Of a DNA stretch of 64,000 nucleotides, positions 330 to 60,735 are shown piece by piece. The DNA is taken from positions 7,872,255 to 7,936,254 of the forward strand of contig CM051512.1 of NCBI GenBank assembly GCA_028015205.1. Reading direction: 5' to 3'. A model generated the notes under the pieces. It was not told the DNA's origin. It searched no databases and was given only the letters and a program-made list of their open reading frames with translations. The DNA is from Mytilisepta virgata. Lineage: Eukaryota; Mollusca; Bivalvia; Mytilida; Mytilidae. Both the position numbers and the translations under genes were made by a program. The first letter of the stretch is position 1; each line of letters opens with the position of its first letter.

Positions 330-1370
330 ATTTATAGGTATAATATCCAATTCAAAGGCTGAACTCTTTAAAAGTAGCAAAAGATAAAGGAGCAAGCAAT
401 GTAGCGGTAGTTTGATTATAGTCACTATAATGGTCCAAGATATCAATCCGGTGTTTTATTGATATTATGCCCAGTACAAAGGAGGATCTATTTAAAAGTA
501 ACAAAAAATAAAGCAGCAAGCAATGGAGCGGTAGTTTGACTATAGTCAGTATAATGGTCCAAGATATCAATCCGGTGTTTTATTGATATTATGCCCAGAA
601 CAAAGGAGAATCTATTTAAAAGTAGCAAAAAATAAAGCAGCAAGCAATGGAGCGGTAGTTTGACTATAGTCAGTATAATGGTCCAAGATGTCAATCCGAT
701 GTTTTATTGATATTATCCTCAGTACAAAGGAGGATCTATTTAAAAGCAGCACAAAATAAAGGAGCATGCAATGGAACGGTAGTTTGATTATAGTCAGTAT
801 AATGGTCCAAGATATCAATCCGGTGTTTTATTGATATTATCCTCAGTACAAAGGAGGATCTATCTAAAACCAGCAACCAATAAAGGAGAATGCAATGGAG
901 CGGTAGTTTGATTATAGTCAGTAGAATGGTCCATGATGTCAATCCGGTGTTTTATTGATATTATCCTCAGTACAAAGGAGGATCTATTTAAAAGCAGCAC
1001 AAAATAAAGGAGCATGCAATGGAACGGTAGTTTGATTATAGTCAGTATAATGGTCCAAGATGTCAATCCGGTGTTTTATTGATATTATCCTCAGTACAAA
1101 GGAGAATCTATTTAAAAGTAGCAAAAGATAAAGCAGCAAGCAATGGAGCGGTAGTTTGATTATAGTCAGTATAATGGTCCAAGATATCAATCCGGTGTTT
1201 TATTGATATTATGCCCAGTACAAAGGAGGATCTATTTAAAACCAGCAACCAATAAAGGAGCATGCAATGAAACGGTAGTTTGATTATAGTCAGTATAATG
1301 GTCCAAGATGTCAATCGGGTGTTTTATTGGTATCATCTTCAGTACAAAGGAGGATCTATTCAAAGCTTGA
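330..1370. repeat. 124-bp tandem repeat array (about 8 copies)
   Basis: Eight head-to-tail units of 124 bp each carry 'ggagcggtagtttgattat', 'agtataatggtccaagat' and 'gttttattgatattat'. Variants are shared among non-adjacent units (for example 'accagcaaccaataaagg' and 'agcagcacaaaataaagg'). That points to unequal exchange within the array. A ~68-codon open frame on the minus strand recurs in every unit, but 124 is not divisible by three, so the frame is a by-product and not a repeat protein. Confidence 0.93.
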
Positions 1371-33884: not shown

Positions 33885-35762
33885 TCCACTTTTCGTGGAA
33901 AGACCTTTTGTTTTTCTCCTGATTATTTTGTTTTTCTTCTTACAACATATCGAATGGATTTTTGGCCAATGATGTTGTACAGTAATGGGGGTTTCAAAAC
34001 TCACCCTGTGTGACCGGACACTTATTCTTATAGGAGTTATCTCCCCGCGTCCCCTTTTTCTTGTTATCGCTATATCTCTAAAACCGTAAAAGATATCGAC
34101 CCAAAATCTTTTGCAATGTCTTCAGTGTATCTGTGCGCAACTTTGTTCCATTGGTCAAAAAGGATCTGACGACATTTCATAGGAGTTATTTCCCTTCAAA
34201 CGACTTTCACTTTTGGTGTATCATACAAATTGTTATTTAGAGTTGAGATATCAACATGAAACTTCGTATTTAGGGTCCATGACCCCTAACAAGTAAAATG
34301 AGGTCAAGGTCAAGTTCTAAATTTTGACTTTTGCTTGTTATCGCTTCTCCTCTGAAACGGTAAAAAATAGCTGATAAAATTTAATGGAGAAAATGTTAAG
34401 GACGTTGAGACCTAGCTTAGTTACATTTTGCATAAAAGTTGTATGACGTCATTTTATAGGCGTAATTGCCGTTAGAACGTTTAAATTTGCGGTTTTTCGT
34501 TTATTTCTCAACAATGGTACATGATAAAGGCATGGGGTCTTTTGTATTGACATCAAGGATTGATAACCTTCAAATTTGCATCAAGGTCAAAGGTCAAGGT
34601 CAAGTTCTAAATTTTGACTTTTGCTTGTTATATCGCTTCTCCCCTGAAACGGTAAAAGATAGCTGATAAAATGTAAAGGAGAAAATGTTAAGGACGTTAC
34701 AACCTAGCTTTGTTACATTTGAGAAAAAGTTGTATGACGTCATTTTATAGGCGTAATTGCCCCTAGAACGTTTAAATTTTCGTTTTTCGTTTATTTCTCA
34801 ACAATGGTACATGATAAAGGCATGGGGTCTTTTGTTTTAACATCAGGGATTGATAACCTTCAAATTGGCATCAAGGTCAAAGGTCATGGTCAATTTCTAT
34901 TATTTGACATTTGCTTGTTATCACTACTCCTCTGAAATGGTTGTAGATAGCCAAGGAAATGTAAGGTGGAAATGTTTAGGACATTGATGAGCAACTTTGT
35001 TACATTTGAGTTAAAGTTGTATGACGTCATCTTTTGAGATTAATTGCGCCTAGAACGTTCAAACTTAAGGTTTTTCGTTTATAACTTGACAATGGTACAT
35101 AATAATGGCATGGGGTCTTCTAAAATGACCTCAACGACCAATGACCTTGAAAAAGGTCACAAGGTCAAAGGTCAAGGTCATGACCTATATTACGTATTTT
35201 GCATTTGTTCACACTTTATAAGTTTTTTTCAGATTTTTAAAGCAATTAAAGCTATTGAAAGCGTGAAATTCAGGCACTACTTTTGATGACGTCATTTCTG
35301 GCAACGTTATTATTTCTGTAGACGTTTTTAGACATTTTGGATATATTGGAATGTTAATTAATGTGACAATGTTACAACCCATGAAAACGTCTAAAATTGT
35401 CAATTTATAAGGTCACATTAATGACGTTTTTGATGTTTATAGTGCAAAACAGTATAATTCATCACAAACATTTAGTTAACCAGAAATAAACATTTTTCTT
35501 AGTTATCCAAACTAGCAGTCCATATATTTTTTTAACAATTGTGAAATTACCTATCATATCAAACCAGAAGTGATATTTGTAATACGGGAAGTAGCATAAT
35601 ACCTCCCTTATTTCAGTACATAGAACCATATATCTTTGAAATCACTGAAAGTTTAGCTATGCTCTAAAACCAACAATTACATTTTAAACCTCATTTTTTT
35701 TATCAAAAAATCTGCAATTGAGGTGGAAAGACCTTCAATTGTTCTCTGAACAATTGGTTTTT
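33885..35762 (+). mobile_element. Hairpin-ended element with ~290-bp internal tandem units
   Basis: The left end is a perfect hairpin ('aggtctttccacttttcg' with 'tggaaagacct'). The right end repeats 'ggtggaaagacc' and closes with another hairpin, CAATTGTTC-TCT-GAACAATTG. Inside, about four units carry 'gttgtatgacgtcattttat', 'caatggtacatgataaagg' and 'aaggtcaaaggtcaaggtca' (marker gacgtcat at ~34445, 34737, 35025, 35288). Open frames at 34466 and 35044 are parallel by-products of the units. It is non-coding and non-autonomous. Confidence 0.75.
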
Positions 35763-41387: not shown

Positions 41388-42946
41388 TTTAGCTCACCTG
41401 GCCAAAAGCCATGTGAACTTTTGTCATCATTTGGCTTCCGTCGTCCATCCGTCCGTCCGTTAACTTTTCGCATTTTAATCTTCTCCGCTGAAACCGGTGG
41501 GCCAAATAGAATTAAACTTAACAGGAAGCATCTATGTAAGGTCCTTTATAAAATTTGCTCATTTCGTTCCGATCGGACTACAAATATGACCGCAATGGGC
41601 AATTGTTGTTTCTGATAGGCTGATATAAAAAATATTCTCCTCTGAGATCGCTTGGCCAAATGGAACAAAACATGACAGGAAGCATATATGGGGGGGGGGG
41701 TTGTCCTTTATAAAGTTTCCTCATTTCGTTCTGATGATACTACAAATATGGTCGCAATTGGCAGTTTTTGTTTCTGATTGGCTGATATAAAGAATTATTC
41801 TCCTTTGAAATCGCTTCGCCAAATTGAACTAAACTTAACAGGAAGTATCTGTGGGAAGTTCTTTACAAAGTTTCCTCATTTTCCCCTGATCACACTACAA
41901 ATATGGCCACCATGGGCAGTTTTTTGTTTCTGATTGACTGATATAACAAACTCTTCTTCTCTAGAACTGCTTGGCCTACTGGAACGAAACTTGATAGGAA
42001 GCATATATGGGAGGTCCTTTATACAGTTTCCTCATTTCGTCCCAATCGGACTAAAAATGTGACCGCCATGGGGGCAGTTCTTGTTTCTGATTGGCTGATA
42101 TAAAAAAATATTATCTGAAATCATCTGGCCAAATGGAACGAAACTTGACAGTAAGCATCTATGGGAGGTTCTTCAAAAAGTGTCCTCATTTCGTCCCCAT
42201 CAAGCAACTAGCATGGCCGTCATGGGCAATTCTTGTTTCCAATTGGTTGAATAAAAAAACATTTTTTCTCTGGAACTGCTTGGCCAAAACAGTCGAAGAG
42301 AAATCATCTTTGGAAATTTTTTTATGAAATTATCGTCCTGGTTGGACAACAAGCATGGCAATTCTTGTTTCTGATTGGCTGGTTTAAACAAATATTCTTC
42401 TCTGAAACAGCTTGGCCAAATGGAACGAAACTAGACAGGAAGGATCTGTGAGATGGCTTTTGCAAAGTTTCCTCATTTTGTCAAGATTAGGTGACAAACA
42501 TGGCTACCATGGGCTATTATCGTTTCTGATAGGTTGATTTAAAAAAAAACAATTCTCTGAAACTGCTTAGTGGCCAAATAGAGTTTGTATATAACAAAAA
42601 TGTACAGAACTGCAGTATTGCTTGAAACCAAACATGACCTGAATGTTTCTCATGAGGTGCTGACCAAGTGTTGATACATTGGTGGCAATCCCTCATTCAA
42701 GATGGCCACCAGCAGATAACTTAGGTTAACATAAGACCCTCTGGGAAATACATGCAAAAAGAACCTCCAAATTTTAAAATATGCTGACCTGTAAGTAGAA
42801 GGACCTTGATGAAGAAAATTTTGGTTCCTTCAAGGCTTACTACACTTCATAATGATAGGGAGACGTGATTTTCCTCTGAGGTATAACAGTAAAAACGGCT
42901 TTCATGCCAGGTGAGTGATACAGGCTCAGACCTCTGAGCTTCTAGT
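41388..42946 (+). mobile_element. 1.56-kb 'TAGCTCACCTGG...CTAG' element with ~157-bp tandem units
   Basis: Starts 'ttagctcacctggccaaaa' with the usual 'ccgtccgtccgttaac' start block. It ends 'ccaggtgagtgatacaggct' and a hairpin, GCTCAGA-CC-TCTGAGC, then 'ttctag|tttt'. Inside are about eight units of ~157 bp with 'gcttggccaaatggaacgaa', 'ggtcctttataaagtttcct' and 'tgtttctgattggctgatat'. The hairpin next to CTAG followed by T resembles a Helitron 3' end, but no 5' TC start or Rep/helicase is visible. Frames at 41283-41615, 42091-42327 and 42200-42391 are products of the units. Confidence 0.72.
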
Positions 42947-43235: not shown

Positions 43236-44326
43236 AATAACAAGAGTGGACACACAAAAATGTCTCGCCTGTCGTGTATTTCTAATGAAAGTAAATGCTA
43301 TCAGACACATTGCATACAGTATTCGAAAAACAGGCCAAAACACAAAAACTTAACTATAACCACTGAACCATGAAAATGAGGTCAAGGTCAGATGACACCT
43401 GCCAGTTGAACATGTACACCTTACAATCCTTCCATACACCAAATATAGTAGACCTATTGCATACAGTATTCAAAAAACAGGTCAAAACACAAAAACTTAA
43501 CTATAACCACTGAACCATGAAAATGAGGTCAAGGTCAGATGACACCTGCCAGTTGAACATGTACACCTTACAATCCTTCCATACACCAAATATAGTAGAC
43601 CTATTGCATACAGTATTCGAAAAACAGGCCAAAACACAAAAAGTTAACAATAACCACTGAACCATGAAAATGAGGTCAAGGTCAGATGACACCTGCCAGT
43701 TGGACATGTACACCTTACAATCCTTCCATACATAAATATACTAGAACTATTGCATACAGTATTCGAAAAACAGGCCAAAACACAAAAACTTAACTATAAC
43801 CACTGAACCATGAAAATGAGGTCAAGGTCAGATGACACCTACCAGTTGGACATGTACACCTTACAATCCTTCCATACACCAAATATAGTAGACCTATTGC
43901 TTATAGTATCTGAGATATGGACTTGACCACCAAAACTTAACCTTGTTCACTGATCCTTGAAATTGGGTCGAGGTCAATTGAAAACTGTCTGACGGGGATG
44001 AGGACCTTGTAAGGTACGCACATACCAAATATAGTTATCCTATTACTCATAATAAGAGAGAAATTAACATTACAAAAAATCTGAATTTTTTTTTCAAGTA
44101 GTCACTGAACCATGAAAATGAGGTCAAGGACAATGTACATATGACAGACGGAAACTTCGTAACATAAGGCATCTATATACAAAGTATAAAGCATCCAGGT
44201 CTTCTACCTTCTAAAATATAAAGCTTTTAAGAAGTGAGTTAACGCCGCCGCCGCCGCCGCCACCGCCGCCGGATCACTATCCCTATGTCGAGCTTTCTGC
44301 GACTAAAGTCGCAGGCTCGACAAAAA
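43236..44326 (+). mobile_element. 1.1-kb element with ~147-bp tandem units and terminal hairpin
   Basis: Starts 'aacaagagtggacacac' and 'atgtctcgcctgtcg'. Four near-identical 147-bp units follow ('cactgaaccatgaaaatgag', 'gtcaaggtcagatgacacct', 'caccttacaatccttccata') at 43361, 43508, 43655 and 43801, then two degenerate units. The 3' end has (CCG)n at 44244-44273 and a nested hairpin, GTCGAGC...CTGCGAC-TAAA-GTCGCAG...GCTCGAC. It matches a mussel repeat that I know well from familiarity. It carries no coding capacity. Confidence 0.8.
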
Positions 44327-46806: not shown

Positions 46807-46814
46807 ATCGTTTA
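46807..46814. repeat. Target site duplication, left
   Basis: ATCGTTTA directly precedes the transposon end CACAGGCGC. An identical octamer follows the other end at 55897-55904. Eight base pairs is the length made by P elements. Confidence 0.93.
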
Positions 46815-47119
46815 CACAGGCGCTTGTCTCAGAAAAAAAAAAAAAAACTATATATGCCAAGAGAAAAGAAAAGGTCCCCAACTCGGGCAACACAATTTTA
46901 CGTGCCTGCTTCGATTTCCAATGAATTATCGCTTCCACCTTTCGGTATCGCTCAAAACGTTTGGATCAATAAAAAAAATATTAATTTATCAACACAATGA
47001 TGTATGACACGCCTACCTTACTTTCAAATCAACAGCGCTATATCCATATGAAATCGGTCAAACGTACATTCTTGATCACAACTACAATAAATTGCAAATT
47101 TGCAGACAAGAACAAAATG
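46815..47119 (+). repeat. Left terminal inverted repeat
   Basis: Starts CACAGGCGCTTGTCTCAG followed by an A run. It continues through 'atgccaagagaaaagaaaag', 'gtccccaactcgggcaacac' and 'cgcttccacctttcggtatc' to 'ctacaataaattgcaaattt'. Matches 55592-55896 inverted. Confidence 0.95.
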
Positions 47120-47267
47120 AATTGCTGCCTTCTGATTGGCTAACTCGGTGTGCTAAAATTAAAACGGGAAACTAGAGTATTAATTTAGTAACAGAAAATG
47201 GCAAAGCTGAATCGGTGAATGTGAAGTCGTTTGTATCGATTCTTCGGACTTTAATATCAAGTTTATG
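47120..47267 (+). promoter_or_regulatory. Promoter / 5' UTR exon of the helicase gene
   Basis: Sequence just inside the left inverted repeat ends at a consensus donor, ATG|GTGAGT (47265-47273). The matching acceptor TATTTTCTTTAG is at 48160. This predicts a non-coding first exon and transcription starting in or near the repeat. A short upstream ORF begins with ATG near 47199. Confidence 0.5.
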
Positions 47268-48160
47268 GTGAGTGACACTTAATTGAACTTTCAGTATTGG
47301 ATTCAGAGATCATTCTAATTTTGTTTTATATTAAATAATCAGCGATTTATGTTACAAACACATTTACAGATCATTGTTTACAATTTACGGTTGCGACAGA
47401 TCAACTTGTATAACCCACAGGCTCTTGTCATTAACAATTTGCCATACACATATTATTCAAGGGTTACACAAATTGCTGATATAGAATACAACATGGTGAT
47501 GAGAAGCATTTTAAAAATGAGGGGGGGGGGGGGGGGGGGGGGGGGGCTGTCACTGAGGGATAAAAGGAAGGTTGGGAGGGGGGGGGGGGGGGTGACAAAA
47601 AATGCTATATATTTTGAGTCAAACTTTTAGCCAATTTATCATTATTTCCTGGGTCTACCTATGGACGTGGGAACTTAATTAAAGACAGTTTCATTTATTT
47701 TATTCAACAGTTCCATCTTCAGGAGATAACTTTTATTATTTAAAAAAATATATAACTAAACATGTACATGTAAGGTTTACATGGTATATGTATAGACTAG
47801 CCATGACACAGTCACACAGGCTCTTGTCCCAAGAACAAAAAATATTGTTTAGTATTTTTATGCCCCACCACGAATATGGCTGGGGCATATAGATTTACCC
47901 TTGTCCGTACGTCTGTACGTACGTCCTAATTTGGTTAAGTTTTGACGTTTAGGTCCATTTCTCAGAAACCTATAGTAATATATCAATGATATTTCACCAC
48001 TACAGTCCTCTTGTATAGTACAACGCCGTTCAGCAACACCTATATTGTTTTTAGGACGGGGCATCCGTGTCTTATAGACACATTTTCTAGTTTTATCTGA
48101 AAAAGAGCCTGTGCACATGAGTCACTTCATTTTAATTGGTATATTAACTATTTTCTTTAG
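47268..48160 (+). other. Intron of the helicase gene with nested repeats
   Basis: Lies between GTGAGT (47268) and TTTCTTTAG (48160). It contains a 26-base G run (47521-47546), a 15-base G run (47578-47592) and the small element at 47815-48113. The 93-codon frame at 47349-47630 reads through the G run and is not a gene. Confidence 0.55.
47815..48113. mobile_element. 299-bp nested element with transposon-like ends
   Basis: Begins CACAGGCTCTTGTCCCAAG and ends AAGAGCCTGTG, the same 5-prime heptamer as the host transposon ends. Inside it is the common mollusc repeat 'atgccccaccacgaatatgg' and 'ctggggcatatag'. Flanks 'cacagtca' and 'cacatgag' share only CACA, so no clean target duplication is seen. 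It could be a mini-derivative of a related element. Confidence 0.5.
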
Positions 48161-48170
48161 ATTACACGTC

Positions 48171-51100
48171 ATGGAGGGTAAACAAGCAGAAGCTCTAAAA
48201 GTTACCTTACAGGGGCATAATTTATTATTATTAGGACAAAGTGGAACTGGCAAGAGTTATGTGGTTGGAGAAATTTGCAAGAAACTAAAGAAGAGGGGTA
48301 AATCTGTGAGCATAACAGGATCAACAGGGGTGGCGTCACTAAATGTTGAAGGGAAAACGATTCACACATGGTCAGGAATAAGAGATGGCAGATTTTCAAA
48401 TGAAGAACTTATTCGAAAAATATCTGTTGATGAACACTTTCAGAAATATAAATTTAATATACAAAGTACTGATTGCCTCATTATAGATGAAATATCTATG
48501 CTTTCAGCCAAATTGTTTGGTCAAATTGAATTTATTTGCAGAAAAATTAAAAACAATGACTTGTACTTTGGTGGCATTCAAGTGGTAGCTTCAGGTGATT
48601 TTATTCAACTACCCCCTGTTCCTGATAATTTAAAAGAAGATCCTGGTGAATTTTGTTTCAAGTGTCCGGTATTCTCATGTGTCTTTAAACACAGAATTGT
48701 TCTTGATAATGTAATGAGACAAGATGAACCTGACTTTGTCAAAGCTATTAATGACATATCAAAAGGAGATCTACCGGAAGATACATTAAATTTATTAAAA
48801 AGATTGCAAAGGACTCTTCCCCAAGGAGAAAAACCAGTTCGTCTATTTGCCCGAAACTTTGATCGTGAAGTGTACAATGCTACATGTTTAATGGATTCAG
48901 ACCGGGAAATGAAAATATATGACGCGCTTGATGAAGGGGACTCCGGAATGTTAGAAAAACTTTCTGTATCAAAACAATTACATTTAAAATTAAATAGTCC
49001 TGTTATGCTTATAAAGAATTTAAGCTCAAATCTTGTAAATGGTCTACAGGGGGTGGTTGTTGCCATGGAGAATGATACCGTTACTGTTAAATTAAAAACA
49101 ATTACTGCTGAATAGAAAAGAGAAACTTTTACTGTCTATAGCTCAATTGAGAATAAGGTTGTTGCTAGCAGACATCAAATACCTTTAGTTTTGGCTTATG
49201 GGATGACAATACACAAAGCGCAAGGTCTGACAATGGATAGATTGGTAGTTGACTGCTCCAATATTTTTAAACCAGGCCAACTTGGTGTTGCTGTCGGGCG
49301 TGCAAGAAAGAAGATCGGATTGCAGTTAATTAATTTTAAACCCAGTGCAGTTATTAAACATGACAAGTCAATGTTTGAATTTTATGACCAACAATCCTTC
49401 CCATTTTGTGATAATTTGTTAGATTGTTGTAAAATTTCCTATTCAGTAATTAATGAATTATGTGAAGAGATGCAAGAGACTGGCAGTGATTCAGAAATGT
49501 CAGATTTCAGCTGTGCAGAGTTGGAAAGAATTGACATGATGTTGGATACATGTACATTAAGTAATGAAGGTGTATCAAGTTTAGTTTCTACCATAGTTGA
49601 AACAGAAATTGAGACAGATGATATATCAGAATTTCCATTAACTGTAAATGACATTAAATGCTGTATACCTGAACTTCTAATTACTCAGGAACAAAAGATG
49701 ATTCATGACAAGCGCAATAATTTAATATCACAGTATGAATATCTTTTTAAAGAACCTTTTTCAAACTATGTCAGAATTATTTGTCAAATATTGTGGTGAC
49801 ATTGAAAGTAAACATACTGATTCAAAAACTTGGACAAAATACTACACTGAACTGTACAAATTTTCTGGATCTAAAGAATATATTGCTTTCATTGAAAGAT
49901 GTTTGAACATAACACCAGAAGAAAATGATTTTACTGTTTTCAGTAAAATATTTGACTTTGTTTCACTTTTTGTATTGCAAAAGAAAACAGATCACTTAAA
50001 AGGCAAAAGTACAAAACATCAAGAAAAATATCCAACTACTGATGCAGCAGGGCTAGGGAAGTTGAGGTATATTGCAGGCAGATGTGTAGCTAAATCAAAA
50101 TTTCATTTTATGCAGATAGGTAGGAACAACATGTACCACAAAAAGAAATTGAAACTTGTTTCAGAATGCTTTTTGAAGGTGAGAATTTTAGACCATTTCA
50201 CTTCTAGTTATGCAGACTTGTGCGAAAACAGCAAATGTAAAGAAAAGTTAGAGGAAACTAAAAGAAAACAAAATCTGACACAAGGTTTAACAAACATTAA
50301 AGACAATGTGCTAGATTTTTTTGTAGAACTGGACAAATGCCGGTCATTAGTTGAAAATGAAAAAAACGTTTCATCTGCAAGGATCAAATACTTTGAATTT
50401 TGTTCGAGATCATCTTTTGTGTAGTGTACCTCTTTATCAACAGTTCAAATCTTTAATGGAACATTTTGACCTCAGTGTAATGTATGTCAGAGTTGATGAG
50501 GCTTTAGCACAGAGCTGCTTAAGAGAATTGTTTGCTGATCTAATTCTGAGATTCTGTCGTGTTGCGGACAACCAATTTAGAAAAGATCTTATTAGATCAT
50601 TTGGATTATCAAAATCTGAAGCGCTCAGAAAAAGGGTAGTTGATACAAAAAGTAAGAAGGACAGTACACAACAAAAACTTAATATGTCATATATTTTGAA
50701 AGACAGCTCTAGTAATAAAATAAGTTCTCATTTAAAACTGAAATCCAATATTTGTGATTGTGGTATATCAGCATTTGATAATTTCACCAAGAAGCAACTT
50801 GTGATTCTTTGTAAAGCATACAATGTACAAATTGTAAATCGAGATGTCAAAAAAGTTATTTGTGAAAAGTTACAATCAGTTATTCAATCAATGTCTTTGA
50901 TTCCAAATGTTAAAGAGTTACTTCAAGAAGATGAACTTTCAGAAATTAACCTATCATCAGATCAACAACCATCAACATCAAGAACATGTAGTGTGTCTGT
51001 AGTCCAGATGGAAAGAGGTTTGTCTGAAGAATCCAAAACTGTACAGAAAAACAAAGCTCCTGCTAAAAGAAAAAGAAGGAAATATTTAGTAAGCTGTAAA

Positions 51101-51307
51101 AGAAGAAAAAAAAGTAAAACTACTGTTCAGTCTAAAGAGGAAGATGACACAGTTTGCACAAAATGCAATAGAAAAAGTGATGACGATGATTGGATACAGT
51201 GTGATATTTGTGATAAGTGGTATCACAGAGCATGTCAGAACATTAATTAAGAAACTTATGCAAATTTTGGAGAGGAAGACTGGTATTGCCTGGATTGTTG
51301 TGAATGA
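48171..51307 (+). pseudogene. PIF1-like helicase with SAP-like and PHD parts, frame disrupted
   Basis: The start is ATG 48171, ten bases after a good splice acceptor. Motifs in order: Walker A GQSGTGKS (residues 22-29), the PIF1 block STGVASLNVEGKTIHTWSGI (51-70), DEISM (106-110), SGDFIQLPPV (141-150), VMRQDEPDF (181-189) and SPVMLIKNLS (276-285). A TAG follows (49113-49115). The same frame continues with LAYGMTIHKAQGLTMDRL and GQLGVAVGRARK, the last SF1B motifs. The frame then shifts between 49735 and 49799 and again between 50351 and 50424, both next to A/T runs. The C-terminal part has a SAP-like helix pair (FTKKQLVILCKAYNVQ), a Lys/Arg-rich stretch and a PHD finger (CTKC...CDIC..WYHRAC), cut by TAA (51248-51250). 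It resumes in frame with EEDWYCLDCC to TGA 51305. The helicase would unwind DNA, and the PHD may bind chromatin (inference). Both stops could be CAG/CAA to T changes. Confidence 0.88.
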
Positions 51308-51985
51308 TGTAAGCAAATTGGTAACTACTGGTAAATTCATCATAAATAGTAGAACCTATTTTTTGGGACCACTTATCGCAGGCTCTTTCTTTTCTCAGTA
51401 AAAAAAAAATTACTACATGTATACTCTGTGACAAAAGAAAGGATACACTTTTTTGTTTTAATTGACTACATTGGAAGATTAAATTTACTTTAGAATTTTT
51501 CTGCAGTGTAACAATAATCTGTTTTTTAATTTCCTGAATCCTTTTTTTCGTTTCTTAAAGTTTCAAGAATTTCACCACTGCTTAAAAGGAGATTTAATGT
51601 TTTCTCTGGTCAGAAAATTGAGGTTAGAGCTATAGCATTGAATTTTTGTCAAATCTTATGTTAAAATATGCTGAAAAAATTAAGAAATTCACATTTACTT
51701 GAAAACAGGGGAAAATATACAGTATGTACTTTAAAAAATATAATTGTCCGAGATTGTATCCTTTCTTTCGTCGCCCAGTATACATTTAGTATTTAGTATT
51801 TTTTACTGGGATTTCGCAAATCCAAGAAACCAATCTTATTAGTGAGAAATTGGGTTTGAATTGTGACCTTTGACCTTTAGATATTCAACAAACCAAAATT
51901 AAATTACTACATGGTTTTATCTTTTTTTTATTAAAATGATTTTTTAAACGATGAGTTTTTTTTACCATACTATACATCTTGGAAT
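51308..51985. other. Spacer between the convergent transposon genes
   Basis: AT-rich shared 3' region of the helicase (plus) and transposase (minus) genes. No coding signal seen. Confidence 0.5.
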
Positions 51986-53624
51986 TTATAATCTTAATTT
52001 CTTTTGTGGAACATCGGCAACAAATGGTCTTGCACCTTTTCCTCCTGAGTTGCACTTTCTTGATATTGTTGCTTCTCCTAAAATTACACTATTAATGCCA
52101 GTCCTGTAAGAATTGTATGTTGGATTTGTTGCAGCACCGTGATAAAGTCCACGTTGTTGGCAGAATACGTTTTCAATTATATCACTATTGAGACGTGTAG
52201 GAACAATTTCAGTATGTAGGTCTTCAATGCACATTTTAGTTAGGGACATGAAACCATGGTACATAAAATCTAGGTCCTCTCTTGTCTCCATTGTCATAAG
52301 ACTTTTGTAACGCTTACTAATAGTGTTTGATTGGCAAGTTTGTTTCTCCCATGATTTAAACCAGTTGTAACATAGTGTTAATTTTTTCAGTCTTTCATCA
52401 CACATTTCTTTTACTGGTCTCTCATCTGTATAAAATGAAACAAGGAAACTAGTATGCTCAAGAAGTTGGATAACTGCAGTTAAAGCCTGTTGTCCAGCTT
52501 CACCAAGGGATTTCTGGTAAGTTTTCATCAGATGTAACATATCAACATTTAATGTATCAAAAGCCAGTTTGTTTCTCATTTTTTGAGCATTGTTCGGAAA
52601 TAGGTGTTCATCTGTCAGTTTATTATGAATTGGAAAGGAATGACAGCTTCTGTCCCATTGATATGCATCAACCCACATTTGCCAATTAATAGTATAGTTA
52701 TCTACAGTTAGAAGTCTTTGATGGTGTTCTTTAATTCCACTACTAAGCAAGCTGTTGCGTATTTTTTTAATGAGGTGGCATGGGTCCATTATGAAAATTA
52801 GTTTCCTAAATGGGTTCCTGTAATGTGAAGCAACCATGTTTGTACATAAGGGATCATCTTCAGGAAAGTGCATTTTCAAAAATGCTCTGTTGTTACTGGA
52901 CCCATCAACACAACAGTATATTGGTTTAAAGTTCCACTCGAATAAAGCATCAACACACTTCCATGTGGATACAAAAATATCAGCAGGAGCAGCCTGCGTG
53001 TTTGGATAATTGGCAAAAGGCCAACGAAAGCCAGTTAAACCGTGAAATACATATTGTAATACATGATCTGCCAGTTTATTTGTACAATTCCCCTCATTTG
53101 CGTTGTGCATAATCATTATATCTGGCTCACAATCAACAAGCCCAACTAAAATACTATCTTTCCCATTATTAACTATTTGTATATCCTCCTGGATAGACAT
53201 CTCATCAAGTATCAATCCTCCATAAAACCCTTTTTCACAAACTTTTTGTCGAATTGCTTCTTGGTGCATCCATGACATCATATCAGGAATTATACCAGGC
53301 TTTTGTTTTATAGCATTTTTATATAAATACAGAAGACCCTCTGATGGAAGATTTAGCCAGGCATTCTTTGTTATATCCCTATATGCTGAAGGGTTCCTAT
53401 TGTAAAGTGTCAACGTCATGCGAATTACTTCCTTTGGCCATCTCATACCTTTTGATTTACATTCTGAAGCTTTTATTTGAGAAGCTATTAGAGTGAACTG
53501 ATTTTCGTTTAAATTTGGAGCGATTTTTTTCAAATTTTCTGCAATGTCTAATTTTGTGGACATACATGGATTTATATTCTCTTTTTCAGGATTTACATGG
53601 TGGTTTTTGTGCTTATTTGACTTC
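51986..53624 (-). CDS. P-element/THAP9-type transposase, main exon
   Basis: An open frame of 525 codons from ATG 53563, open further upstream to a likely acceptor, CGCTTTAG (exon start ~53624). The N-terminal part has the family's helical block (MTLTLYNRNPSAYRDI, residues 49-64), then the first RNase H strand GLILDEMSIQEDI with candidate catalytic D120. CCVDGSSNNRAF (D220) and FIMDPCHLIKKIRN (D260) follow, and LNSDIIENVFCQQRG supplies candidate E464. The stretch between is long enough for the GTP-binding insertion known in P and THAP9. I do not assign the second catalytic Asp between D220 and D260. The frame is undamaged to its stop, in contrast to the neighbouring helicase. It would cut and join the element ends in the nucleus. 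Confidence 0.88.
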
Positions 53625-53728
53625 CTAAAGCGTTATGGTTCGAACATTGTTTACAAGAAGAGGAAATTGAATTCATTTGAAGAACTCTAAAGCACTCAAT
53701 ATGTCTGATGACAGTCTTTTTTCAGTAC

Positions 53729-54338
53729 CTATGGAACATTTATTTCGTTTACACATTTTTGTCCATAAGAGTAAATATCTTTTTCTGATGATTCAAGTAC
53801 ACTGCCATGGCAGAGGGATAGTGTTTTTAAGCAGCGGAAAAGTGCAGAAAGTGATGTCTTGTTAAATCGTACTTTTGTACAGATGAGATATTTAGAAATG
53901 TCCACTTGTTTTCCAGCCACAAATACTTGAATTGACCCACAATTAACAATGTTTAACTGAGTTAGTACCGAGTTACAATTAAATTTTTCTGCAGATAAAC
54001 TGCCTAAGCTTATTACTTTGTCAGATTTCTCCAAAACATTCCATTCAGGGGGAATCCATTTAGGAATGTCTATAAAATTTATGTCAAATTCAGGCATAAT
54101 TGTCATTGATTCAATTTTAAGTCCTTTCACAGATTTTTTATATGACCCGTTTTCCTTTATCTGTGATTTTTTCACTAGTGGAAACATTTTTTGGAGCATC
54201 TTAAATAAACTGCTTTGACTGCATATTTTCTCAACATTTGGAAACAGTCCTGAGGCCTTTTGATATATGCTTTCAAAAGAAATATTGGTTCCATAAAGGG
54301 ATGCAAAATATTTATCTTCAGTGATATTTTCTGATAAC
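53729..54338 (-). CDS. Upstream exon of the transposase gene (N-terminal region, no recognised domain)
   Basis: After a strong acceptor (TGTTTTGTTGTTGCAG, to 54339) an open frame of about 200 codons begins LSENITEDKYFASLYG and ends at a TAG near 53729. It contains KWIPPEWNVLEK and VFVAGKQVDISKYL but no THAP zinc-finger pattern (C-x2-4-C...C-x2-H). I could not find an in-phase donor to the main exon (acceptor phase needs two leftover bases). So either the junction is elsewhere, a base was lost, or this is a separate small protein. Frames on the opposite strand here are shadows. Confidence 0.5.
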
Positions 54339-55591
54339 CTGCAACAACAAAACATTGAGATCATTGAGCAATTTCAACACTTAAGAACAATTATAATCTT
54401 TAATCCAAAATATAATTGTCCAACCTTCATCTCTTAAGCACGAAGTATTTACTTTCCGGGGTTTTTTTTTTTTGGGGGGGGGGTTGTTGGGATTTTTTTT
54501 GAAAAAAATATTCTGATTCCTATTTTTGCTGAAAAAAATTTTTTTTATTTCCAACTGTGCAGTAAAAAAATAAAATATCCCCGCACTCTGACATTGCAAC
54601 AATTTTTTTCATTCGTTTAAATTAGAAAAAAAAAATATTGAGCTCGGACCTGATACGAAAAAAAAATTCGCAGAGAGCGTGAAAAAAAATTCTGTTCAGA
54701 CCAAAAATCCCAGGCCCACCCCTGATAAGAAAATGGTCTGTGCCTAAAAGTTGTCAAGTTTTCTTTTATTGGTAAATATTTTTTCCTTTAAAAAATTTGT
54801 TTAATTTTGGGCAAAACATGACCCCCTTTTGTGTTGAAAATGACCCTTTTGCACATTTTTTCGATTGAGATTTGCAGATCTTTAATTATTAATAGCGCAT
54901 TCCAAGATGCTTCCTGCTTTTTGGCTAAGCATGTACCATTTAGGAGATATTGTCATGGAGTCGGAATAATGTACATGGGTGACAAAAAATCATGACTTGT
55001 CTAACTGCAGACAGTTACTTCAATGTGCTAGCACTATAAAGATATAATCTATCATGTTGGTCAAGTACAAAGCAAACATAAGAAATCATACATATAAGTG
55101 TTGTAGCAGCCATGATATAGCTGAACATTTTCTCATTTTTTTTTTTTTTTCTGATACAAGCGCCTGTGCTTTTGCATTTAAACAACATACACTCACTCAT
55201 TTGCAAGATAATATGATTATTTTGCTGTAAATGATCGTTATTGTATTTACCATGTGCAGAAAGGAGTTTCCACAGACGTATGATGTTCATCCATTGTCAA
55301 TACTTGAAGAAAGTAACCTGTTTTGGTTTACAAAAGAAACGTTTAATATTCAAAATTTCCCGGGAAAACACATTTGGACTCTTAAATGAAAAGTCCAGAA
55401 AACTTCCGAAAAGCTGGATTTTTTTCGTTCTATAAATAGAACTCCATCAACTCATCAAATAAAATGAATTTATTTATCAGCAGCGATTTATTATTACTTC
55501 TTCATACCATTGTTTATCAATTAATTAATCATGACAAAAGAACAAAGAAAGAATTTTTTTAAACAGTTCATTTTCTTTATTTTAATTTTTT
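54339..55591. other. Upstream part of the transposase side; repeats, no clear first exon
   Basis: Contains T/A/G-rich low-complexity sequence (54460-54560), the words 'caaaaatcccaggcccaccc' of a common mussel repeat, and an inner terminus-like motif at 55151-55168. A THAP or other DNA-binding first exon was looked for on the minus strand and not found. Confidence 0.4.
55151..55168 (-). repeat. Inner copy of the transposon terminus motif
   Basis: CTGATACAAGCGCCTGTG differs from the outer end (CTGAGACAAGCGCCTGTG) at one base and is likewise preceded by a T run. It may be a transposase binding site or the end of a second, nested element. The octamer CTTTTGCA after it (55169-55176) also occurs at 54846-54853. 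Confidence 0.7.
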
Positions 55592-55896
55592 TATTTGCTC
55601 CTTGTCTTCAAATTTGCAGTTTATTGTAGTTGTGATCAAGAATGTACGTTTGACCGATTTCATATGGATATAGCGCTGTTGATTTGAAAGTAAAGTAGGC
55701 GTGTCATACATCATTGTGTTGATAAATTAATATTTTTTTTATTGATCCAAACGTTTTGAGCGATACCGAAAGGTGGAAGCGATAATTCATTGGAAATCGA
55801 AGCAGGCACGTAAAATTGTGTTGCCCGAGTTGGGGACCTTTTCTTTTCTCTTGGCATATATAGTTTTTTTTTTTTTTTCTGAGACAAGCGCCTGTG
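55592..55896 (-). repeat. Right terminal inverted repeat
   Basis: Inverted match to 46815-47119. Differences seen are A-run length and a few substitutions near the inner end. Ends ...CTGAGACAAGCGCCTGTG. Confidence 0.95.
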
Positions 55897-55904
55897 ATCG
55901 TTTA
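55897..55904. repeat. Target site duplication, right
   Basis: ATCGTTTA, identical to 46807-46814. Confidence 0.93.
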
Positions 55905-59109: not shown

Positions 59110-60735
59110 TGTTTTGTGATTACCAAGCTTGAGTACCTTATGACATGCAGTCCACAATCATTGAGAACATTAGGACATGGAGTTCACCAAGACTGGTTAC
59201 CTTAAGACTTGGAGTCAACCATCACTAAGTGCCTTAGGACATGGAGTCCACAAGCACTGGGTACATTAAGACATGAAGTCCACCAGCACTGAGTACATTA
59301 ATACTTGGAGTCCACCAGTACTGAGTACCTTAAGACAAGAAGCTCACCAGCACTGAGTACATTAAGACTTGGAGTCCACCTGCACTGAGTAAATTAAGAC
59401 ATGGAGTTTACCAGCACTGAGTTCCTTAAGACATGGAGTTCACTTGCAAGGAGTGCATTAACACATGGAGTCCACTGGTACTGAGTACCTTAAGACATAA
59501 AATCAAACAACACTGAGTACCATAGGGTATGGGGTTCACCAGCACTGAGTACCTTTAAACTTGGAGTCCACCAACACTGATAACCTTAAGACTTGGAGTT
59601 CACCAGGACTGAGTACCTCAAGACGTCTGGTTCACCAGCACAGAGTACCTTGAGACTTGGTGTCCAGCAGCACTGAGTACCTTAAGACAAGGAGCTCACC
59701 CGCAATGAGTACATTAAGAAATGAAGTCCACCAGCACTGAGTACCTTAATACTTGGAGTCCACTAGCACTGAGTACCTTAAGACAAGGAGCTCACCAGCA
59801 CTGAGTACATTAAGACTTGAAGTCCACCAGCACTGAGTACATTAAGACTTGGAGTCCACCAGCACTGAGTAAATTAAGACTTGGAGTCCACCTGCACTGA
59901 ATATATTAAGACATGGAGTTTACCAGCACTGAGTAACTTAAGACATGGAGTTCACCTGCAAGGAGTGCATTAACACATGGAGTCCACTGGTACTGAGTAC
60001 CTTGAGACATAAAATCCAACAACACTGAGTACCATAGGGTATGGGGTTCACCAGCACTGAGTACCTTTAAACTTTGAGTCCACCAACACTGATAACCTTA
60101 GGACTTCGAGTTCACCAGCATTGAGTACCTAAAGACGTGTTGTTCACCAGCACAGAGTACCTTAAGACTTGGTATACAGCAGCACTGAGTACCTAAGGAC
60201 ATGGAGTCCACCAGCACTGAGTACCTTAAGACATGGAGTCCACTGGTACTGAGTACCTTAAGACATAAAATCCAACAACACTGAGTACCATAGGGTATGG
60301 GGTTCACCAGCACTGAGTACCTTTAAACTTGGAGTCCACCAACACTGATAACCTTAAGACTTGGAGTTCACCAGGACTGAGTACCTCAAGACGTCTGGTT
60401 CACCAGCACAGAGTACCTTGAGACTTGGTGTCCAGCAGCAATGACTACCTAAGGACATGGAGTTCACAGCATTGAGTACCTAAGGACATGGAGTCCACAG
60501 CACTGGTTATGTTAGACATGGAATCCACCAGCACTGAGTATCTTATGATATGGAGTTCACCATCACTGAGTATCTAAAAACATGGGGTCCAGCAGTACTG
60601 TGTACTTGGGATATGGAATCAACCAGCACTAAGTACCTTAGACTTGGAGTGCACCAGCATTGAGTACTTTACGATATGTAGTTCACCAGTACTGAGTACC
60701 TTAGACTTGGAGTCCACCATCACTGACATATGGAG
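59110..60735. repeat. 32-bp minisatellite, about 50 units, with higher-order structure
   Basis: Consensus 'ggagtccaccagcactgagt' + 'accttaagacat', period 32. A recognisable multi-unit block ('ctggtactgagtacctt', 'agacataaaatc', 'ccatagggtatggggttcac', 'cctttaaacttggagtc') recurs with 'ggta' at 59477, 59989 and 60245. The spacings are exactly 512 and 256 bp (16 and 8 units). The 71-codon minus frame at 60098-60313 is a by-product. Confidence 0.95.

Follow-up and report, generated by a model that had tools for sequence, protein, structure and literature searches.

Whether a helicase gene carried by a P-type transposon is a working part of that element or a passenger is the question raised by a locus in the mussel Mytilisepta virgata. 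The window, a stretch of 64,000 nucleotides of contig CM051512.1, holds an element with a transposase gene and a PIF1 helicase gene between long terminal repeats. The preliminary description of this DNA reported near-identical inverted repeats of about 305 bp, CA...TG ends, an 8-bp duplication, and two convergent genes, and all four are confirmed below. From its sequence, the element is, with high probability, a dead member of a two-gene cut-and-paste lineage that combines a P-core transposase with a convergent PIF1-PHD helicase.

Anatomy of the window element

Self-comparison places the terminal inverted repeats, each of 307 nt, at 46815-47121 and 55590-55896. The two are 98% identical, with 7 mismatches over 307 nt, and judged by such length and identity they cannot have arisen by chance. 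The outermost bases are CACAGG...CCTGTG. Immediately outside them, at 46807-46814 and 55897-55904, is the target site duplication ATCGTTTA. A 14-nt terminal motif is matched 6 times in the window with at most 2 mismatches, both ends counted, against 0.54 expected; the motif scan places one internal copy at 47416-47429 on the + strand. At 55136-55168, on the - strand, is an internal copy (32/33) of the terminal repeat's outer 33 nt. A piece at 47815-48113 has terminal-motif-like ends in opposite orientation (47815-47828, + strand; 48100-48113, - strand). It was considered as a nested element and rejected, its flanks being without a duplication by eye.

The helicase and transposase genes are convergent. 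The PIF1 helicase-PHD gene is on the + strand at 48171-51307. Pfam identifies the PIF1 helicase part at 48171-49760 (E 2.4e-31) and a PHD finger at 51155-51301 (E 1.3e-6), and a similarity search delimits a middle region at 49729-50364. In this broken gene, a TAG stops the frame at 49113, the frame changes near 49729-49760 and again near 50351-50364, and the PHD finger is interrupted by a TAA at 51248. The P-type transposase gene, of ~790 codons, is on the - strand at 51986-54373. Its open part (51986-53632) contains the catalytic D, D, and E motifs (DEMSIQ, DGSSNNR, and NSDIIEN), and Pfam recognizes the P-type RNase H core (PF21787, E 3.8e-8). The N-terminal domain, at 54089-54340, is an RFX-type winged helix by family profile. 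Between 53633 and 53731 the frame is disturbed by five in-frame stops. Because both genes are broken, the window copy is a dead member of a real transposon family.

Copies, pairing, and co-divergence

Further copies were sought in the window's own genome (1.034 Gb, 109 contigs). The genome searches scored the best 40 of 553, 44 of 625, 82 of 104, and 65 of 422 candidates, and absences in them carry little weight. The 553 are candidate places for the terminal repeat, and the best 40 of these are 91-100% identical. Six terminal-repeat loci outside the window were excised; five are 824-825-bp non-autonomous elements, and the sixth has one repeat only. All five paired copies have perfect 8-bp duplications, each different from the others. 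The 824-bp copies have the same ends, are high-copy, and by analogy look like ordinary non-autonomous derivatives.

Ten helicase loci were picked from the stronger matches, and 20 stretches around them were extracted. A convergent P-type transposase is present at all 10. Both ends, which is what defines a complete element here, and perfect duplications were found at 7 of the 10: C13a (GTAACATT, 8720 bp), C10a (GTGTGTAC, 7710 bp), C10b (AGTAGAAC, 7704 bp), C11a (GATGTAAA, 7192 bp), C13b (GTTTCCGG, 9361 bp), C13c (TCTATGAA, 9362 bp), and C11b (GTCAATTT, 9820 bp). Their terminal repeats measure ~495-551 nt and are 98.8-100% identical. With the window copy there are eight complete two-gene elements of 7.2-9.8 kb, with eight different perfect 8-bp duplications. 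Only C13a among the eight has both frames open (888 and 1087 codons). C64 has a terminal-repeat pair and has lost its left outer bases; neither C5b nor C5c, both truncated, retains ends. C13b and C13c are 99.97% identical and have unrelated flanks and different duplications, which points to recent movement. The helicase gene of both is interrupted by a common insert of ~620 bp. The preliminary description proposed a search for full copies with both genes and varied 8-bp duplications, and these eight are such copies. It also named two contrary outcomes, that the helicase is absent from other copies with these ends or that the ends are linked to another transposase type. Neither was seen for full copies; the 824-bp copies lack both genes. 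No relatives were confirmed in IMG/VR and GTDB contigs, where the terminal sequence was also unmatched.

Pairing of the two genes extends beyond the extracted loci. Among the matches listed, a transposase match lies within 10 kb at 21 of 23 non-Helitron PIF1 loci versus 0 of 39 Helitron-like PIF1 loci (Fisher p 1.4e-14), with ~0.001 expected per locus. The 23 loci are the merged helicase matches of two genome searches, with coordinates transcribed by hand. "Helitron-like" denotes a manual sorting (an open frame of at least 700 codons and a match confined to query positions 16-411), for which 1 of the 39 was checked; this control, L041, has Helitron_like_N, PIF1, OTU, and endonuclease domains. 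The unpaired helicase loci, C3:24562268 and C10:68555676, have no transposase among the matches listed. Conversely, a helicase is listed at 22 of 52 transposase loci, including all 14 of the strongest. The 30 transposase-like loci without a listed helicase are mostly short or weak matches. C16:1469017 has a longer transposase frame and no helicase within 7 kb. Two of the loci without a listed helicase were extracted: L039 has helicase fragments (E 7e-6 and 7e-7), and L040 has no helicase in 7 kb and C2H2 fingers by eye. The helicase would thus mark one lineage and not all P-type transposases.

The transposase and helicase also diverge together, as the preliminary description suggested should be examined. 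For 10 linked pairs, with the pieces of broken copies joined, the two distance matrices agree with a rho of 0.92, a value reached by 0 of 5000 shuffles. With one pair per family, rho is 0.96, and only the true order of 120 reaches it (1/120). The transposase distance of C5c (0.25-0.30 to other members of its family) probably reflects a frame artefact, and the one-per-family test is without C5c. Protein-database pairs, chosen by species, source, or equal-sized contigs, give a rho of 0.68 (2/20000) that host relationships may inflate. The transposase and helicase trees agree in outline and differ in the placement of Pinctada. A Saccostrea helicase falls in the close clade, and no Saccostrea transposase is listed in that clade.

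Substitutions between copies bear on the function of each gene. For the helicase, dN/dS is 0.115 between C10a and C10b (25 synonymous and 11 non-synonymous; binomial p 7e-10) and 0.25 between C13a and C13b (11 and 11; p 0.0016). For the transposase, it is 0.15 between C13a and C13b (8 synonymous and 5 non-synonymous) and 0.58 between C10a and C10b (3 synonymous and 7 non-synonymous), where constraint is not clear. By these counts, the helicase is under purifying selection. The pairing, the co-divergence, and this selection together argue that the helicase is a constant, selected part of the element and not a chance capture. We therefore regard its pairing with the transposase as almost certainly an integral, selected feature of the lineage. 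The distinct lineage of large P-type elements proposed in the preliminary description is upheld, with the PIF1-PHD gene as its constant component, and the term "cargo", in the sense of a capture, is not.

Two other origins of the pairing can be weighed against this evidence. A single P element may have captured a host helicase by chance, a reading that has nothing beyond the single window copy in its favor. It was rejected because the identical convergent arrangement is shared by five families, between which 38-67% of protein positions differ, and because the constant pairing (21 of 23 loci) and co-divergence contradict it; as an explanation it is extremely improbable. Equally hard to credit is the insertion of P elements into a helicase-bearing element. 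A transposase match does lie between two parts of helicase matches at C5:31659387-31666499. However, in the eight complete elements both genes lie within one terminal-repeat pair and one duplication, which contradicts such insertion for complete copies.

The transposase and helicase proteins

The closest full-length relative of the transposase is P0001 (787 aa), with 88% identity across the open part of the window copy. PF21787 is present in 26 of 26 transposase relatives. A profile built from these 26 proteins has the Drosophila P transposase, 6p5a, as its sole PDB match (E 1.6e-11). The catalytic residues of P transposase are D230, D303, and E531, as given in the available text of PMC7776569. 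The invariant E of the family is aligned with E531 of the 6p5a chain, in a third segment that is weak alone (i-Evalue 7.8), and an aligned stretch whose last chain residue is 234 covers D230, the first catalytic D. All 8 complete elements have the D, D, and E motifs. The GTP-binding insertion domain PF21788 is detected in 7 of 26 relatives at E<=0.1 (best 6.9e-7), and in the window copy at 8.3e-4, below the curated cut-off. The predicted transposase structure has a mean pLDDT of 84.

The N-terminus separates this transposase from the "P/THAP9-type" label of the preliminary description, of which the P-type core stands (PF21787, 6p5a) and the THAP9 part does not. A THAP domain is stated for all known P proteins in the accessible portion of PMC1562414. 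Pfam scans of the transposases of the window, the relatives, and the other copies found none. A further exon may lie upstream of the window transposase frame, since this frame begins after a splice-like CAG. C2CH spacing occurs in only 3 of 120 relatives, at residue 145 of 478, 64 of 402, and 98 of 783. A profile from 13 transposase N-termini matches RFX5 (3e-7) and RFX1 (2e-5), and Pfam RFX is matched at E<=1 by 7 of the 13 (best 4.7e-9). The N-terminus of the window copy alone has no Pfam RFX match. In its domain order, the transposase has an RFX-like winged-helix domain ahead of a catalytic core of the P-element type.

The closest relative of the helicase is P0247 (1047 aa), with 74, 79, and 64% identity over three pieces of the window gene. 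A query covering the region from behind the helicase core to the PHD finger returned 16 proteins, all of this helicase family. PIF1 is also present in fifteen of them; for the remaining one, P0243 (578 aa), PHD is the only family listed. This search misses relatives without shared words; for example, P0136 has the region and was not returned. The named matches to the region are from Mytilus and Tegillarca, and a separate search found helicase relatives also in Saccostrea, Pinctada, and others. The middle region of the window helicase is matched by 21 of 120 listed helicases and the last third by 11 of 120. At 27.8 bits the PHD finger of C13a passes the Pfam cut-off of 24, and that of C10a, at 22.8, falls below it. 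In Mytilus edulis, P0008 and P0246 are on equal-sized contigs (3052682 each), a linkage that is suggestive only. Two Tegillarca pairs and one Pinctada pair on equal-length chromosomes are non-adjacent or of unproven adjacency.

Relation to known elements and role of the helicase

The family shares with Drosophila P and zebrafish Pdre2/THAP9 its 8-bp duplications, a P-type RNase H core with D/D/E, and small non-autonomous derivatives (PMC7776569, PMC1562414, and PMC10983969, in the parts available). As described in the same partial texts, P and Pdre2 have terminal repeats of 13-31 nt, whereas those here are ~300-550 nt. Their subterminal repeats are 11-12 bp; here, terminal-motif copies occur in the window element and C13a-c and in none of the four others. 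Drosophila P is 2.9 kb and Anopheles elements reach 7.5 kb (PMC1562414), compared with 7.2-9.8 kb here. The N-terminus is THAP in P/THAP9 and RFX-like here, and the PIF1-PHD protein is a second gene that Drosophila P and Pdre2/THAP9, as there described, do not have. The THAP domain and the single transposase gene, both canonical P/THAP9 features, were tested; no THAP domain was found and the second gene is constant. On these features, the family is a P-type sister lineage and not a canonical P element.

Helicases and PHD proteins accompany other DDE transposases. In the available parts of their descriptions, KolobokH is a DDE-type transposon with a RecQ helicase (PMC9587614) and AcademH is one with a helicase and duplications of 9-10 bp (PMC10045372). 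Both carry helicases as here but belong to other transposase superfamilies. TransibSU and RAG1L-RAG2L likewise pair a DDE transposase with a PHD-finger partner in two genes. The partner in TransibSU is a Kelch-PHD protein, with 13-bp terminal repeats, 5-bp duplications, and a different transposase superfamily (PMC4411706, accessible portion), whereas here it is PIF1-PHD and duplications are 8 bp. Together with RAG-like elements, the present family would make two cases in which a transposase has a PHD protein as its partner, and it connects an RFX-type DNA-binding domain with transposases of the P type. Helitrons and Helentrons commonly have a PIF1-type helicase. They differ from the family in having a Rep domain with the helicase, as the Helitron_like_N of L041 illustrates, and in lacking terminal inverted repeats; here terminal inverted repeats and target duplications are present. 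The Pfam families listed (up to 25 rows) include no Rep-type domain (Helitron_like_N), either for the genes of the element or for their relatives. With the helicase profile, a PIF1 structure reaches 412 bits and Helraiser 121 bits. On the last two grounds, a relation to Helitrons was rejected. None of the open-access titles and abstract openings listed by literature searches, one of which gave 12 of 620, describes a P-type element that carries a PIF1 helicase or an RFX domain; with subscription papers and Repbase outside this scope, earlier cataloguing of the family is possible.

P elements are a textbook system, and the repair of their donor breaks is thought, in the available text of PMC7776569, to use host pathways that include the Bloom helicase homologue. 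In the mechanism proposed for this family, the transposase would bind both the long terminal repeats and the motif copies inside the element, cut at the CA/TG ends, and join them to 8-bp staggered targets. The helicase, which would be able to act in trans, would probably open D-loops or the hairpins formed by single-stranded inverted repeats of 300-550 nt. The opened structures would let DNA synthesis finish, whether in repairing the excision gap or at the site of insertion, and the PHD finger would probably hold the protein on histone tails. Among the activities of PIF1 enzymes are the promotion of D-loop synthesis and the unwinding of structured DNA. Given these activities, the Bloom-type repair by the host, and the folding of inverted repeats in single strands, our first choice, put forward tentatively, is that the helicase assists DNA synthesis or repair connected with transposition. 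On this view, a cut-and-paste element may carry with it a helper for DNA repair or copying, and a selected PIF1 helicase of this kind lets transposon control of excision-gap repair be tested. A fuller version is more doubtful: a DDE lineage with its own replication-restart helicase, a chromatin reader, and, where P elements have THAP, an RFX-type domain that binds the ends; such a lineage would turn excision gaps into templated copying and raise copy number.

Alternatively, an integral helicase might have no role in the transposition reaction and instead help the element to persist, for example by targeting chromatin, controlling expression, or countering host silencing; the PHD finger would then be the part that matters most. 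The PHD finger is C-terminal, in intact copies as well, and transposition went on in C13b and C13c despite the interrupted helicase gene. The movement of these copies shows that an element can do without a helicase of its own in cis. Supply in trans, in the way that non-autonomous copies borrow a transposase, may explain this, as may a helicase that insertion does not require. Selection on the gene disfavors dispensability in the long term. Strong selection across the helicase frame also speaks against persistence as its role, as does the greater conservation of the PIF1 part over the PHD-bearing last third (54% versus 38% identity with P0241, and 74% versus 64% with P0247), and we consider this reading rather unlikely. 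Less likely still is that the helicase makes the element replicative in a Helitron-like manner, with one strand peeled off or the whole element copied. PIF1-type helicases are common to Helitrons, and the same genome contains the Helitron-like L041 with PIF1. However, this reading is opposed by the lack of a Rep-type domain among the families listed and by the higher score with PIF1 structures than with Helraiser, and the terminal inverted repeats and 8-bp duplications fit cut-and-paste transposition.

Copies and relatives of the window element

The terminal repeat of the window's two-gene element is shared with a high-copy, non-autonomous family of 824-825 bp found genome-wide in M. virgata, and a search of the whole genome with this repeat returned 553 candidate places. 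Complete non-autonomous copies with differing 8-bp duplications were present at five of the six loci cut out beyond the window (L003-L008). The helicase genes of C13b and C13c, two complete two-gene copies, are interrupted by the same insert of ~620 bp (L027/L029), whose ends appear by eye to be inverted-repeat-like. On C5 (31659387-31666499), the helicase matches in two parts with a transposase match in between, an arrangement that may represent a nested insertion or a rearrangement.

A distant transposase relative and a Mytilus-like helicase piece

The P-type transposase at L040 (C16:1466500-1473499) is less closely related (about 30%), and this 7-kb stretch holds no helicase. C2H2 zinc-finger-like sequence, recognized by eye, adjoins this transposase; N-terminal DNA-binding domains seem to be exchanged among P-type cores. 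The helicase piece L026 (C11:61536961-61538061) shares 99.7% protein identity with P0159 of Mytilus coruscus, whereas the Mytilus copies are only about 72% alike to the window's own transposase family. L026 is a candidate for horizontal transfer, or its identity may reflect closeness of the host.

Helitron-type proteins and tandem arrays

L041 (C14:107320000-107328999) contains a 2766-codon open frame encoding a Helitron-type protein with Helitron_like_N, PIF1, OTU, and endonuclease domains. Among the scored PIF1 matches, sorting by open frame (at least 700 codons, match confined to query 16-411) gave 39 Helitron-like places in all, L041 included. Tandem arrays occupy window positions 353-1364, 34301-35180, 41477-42288, 43309-43909, and 59130-60726; in the largest, a 32-bp unit is repeated about 50 times.
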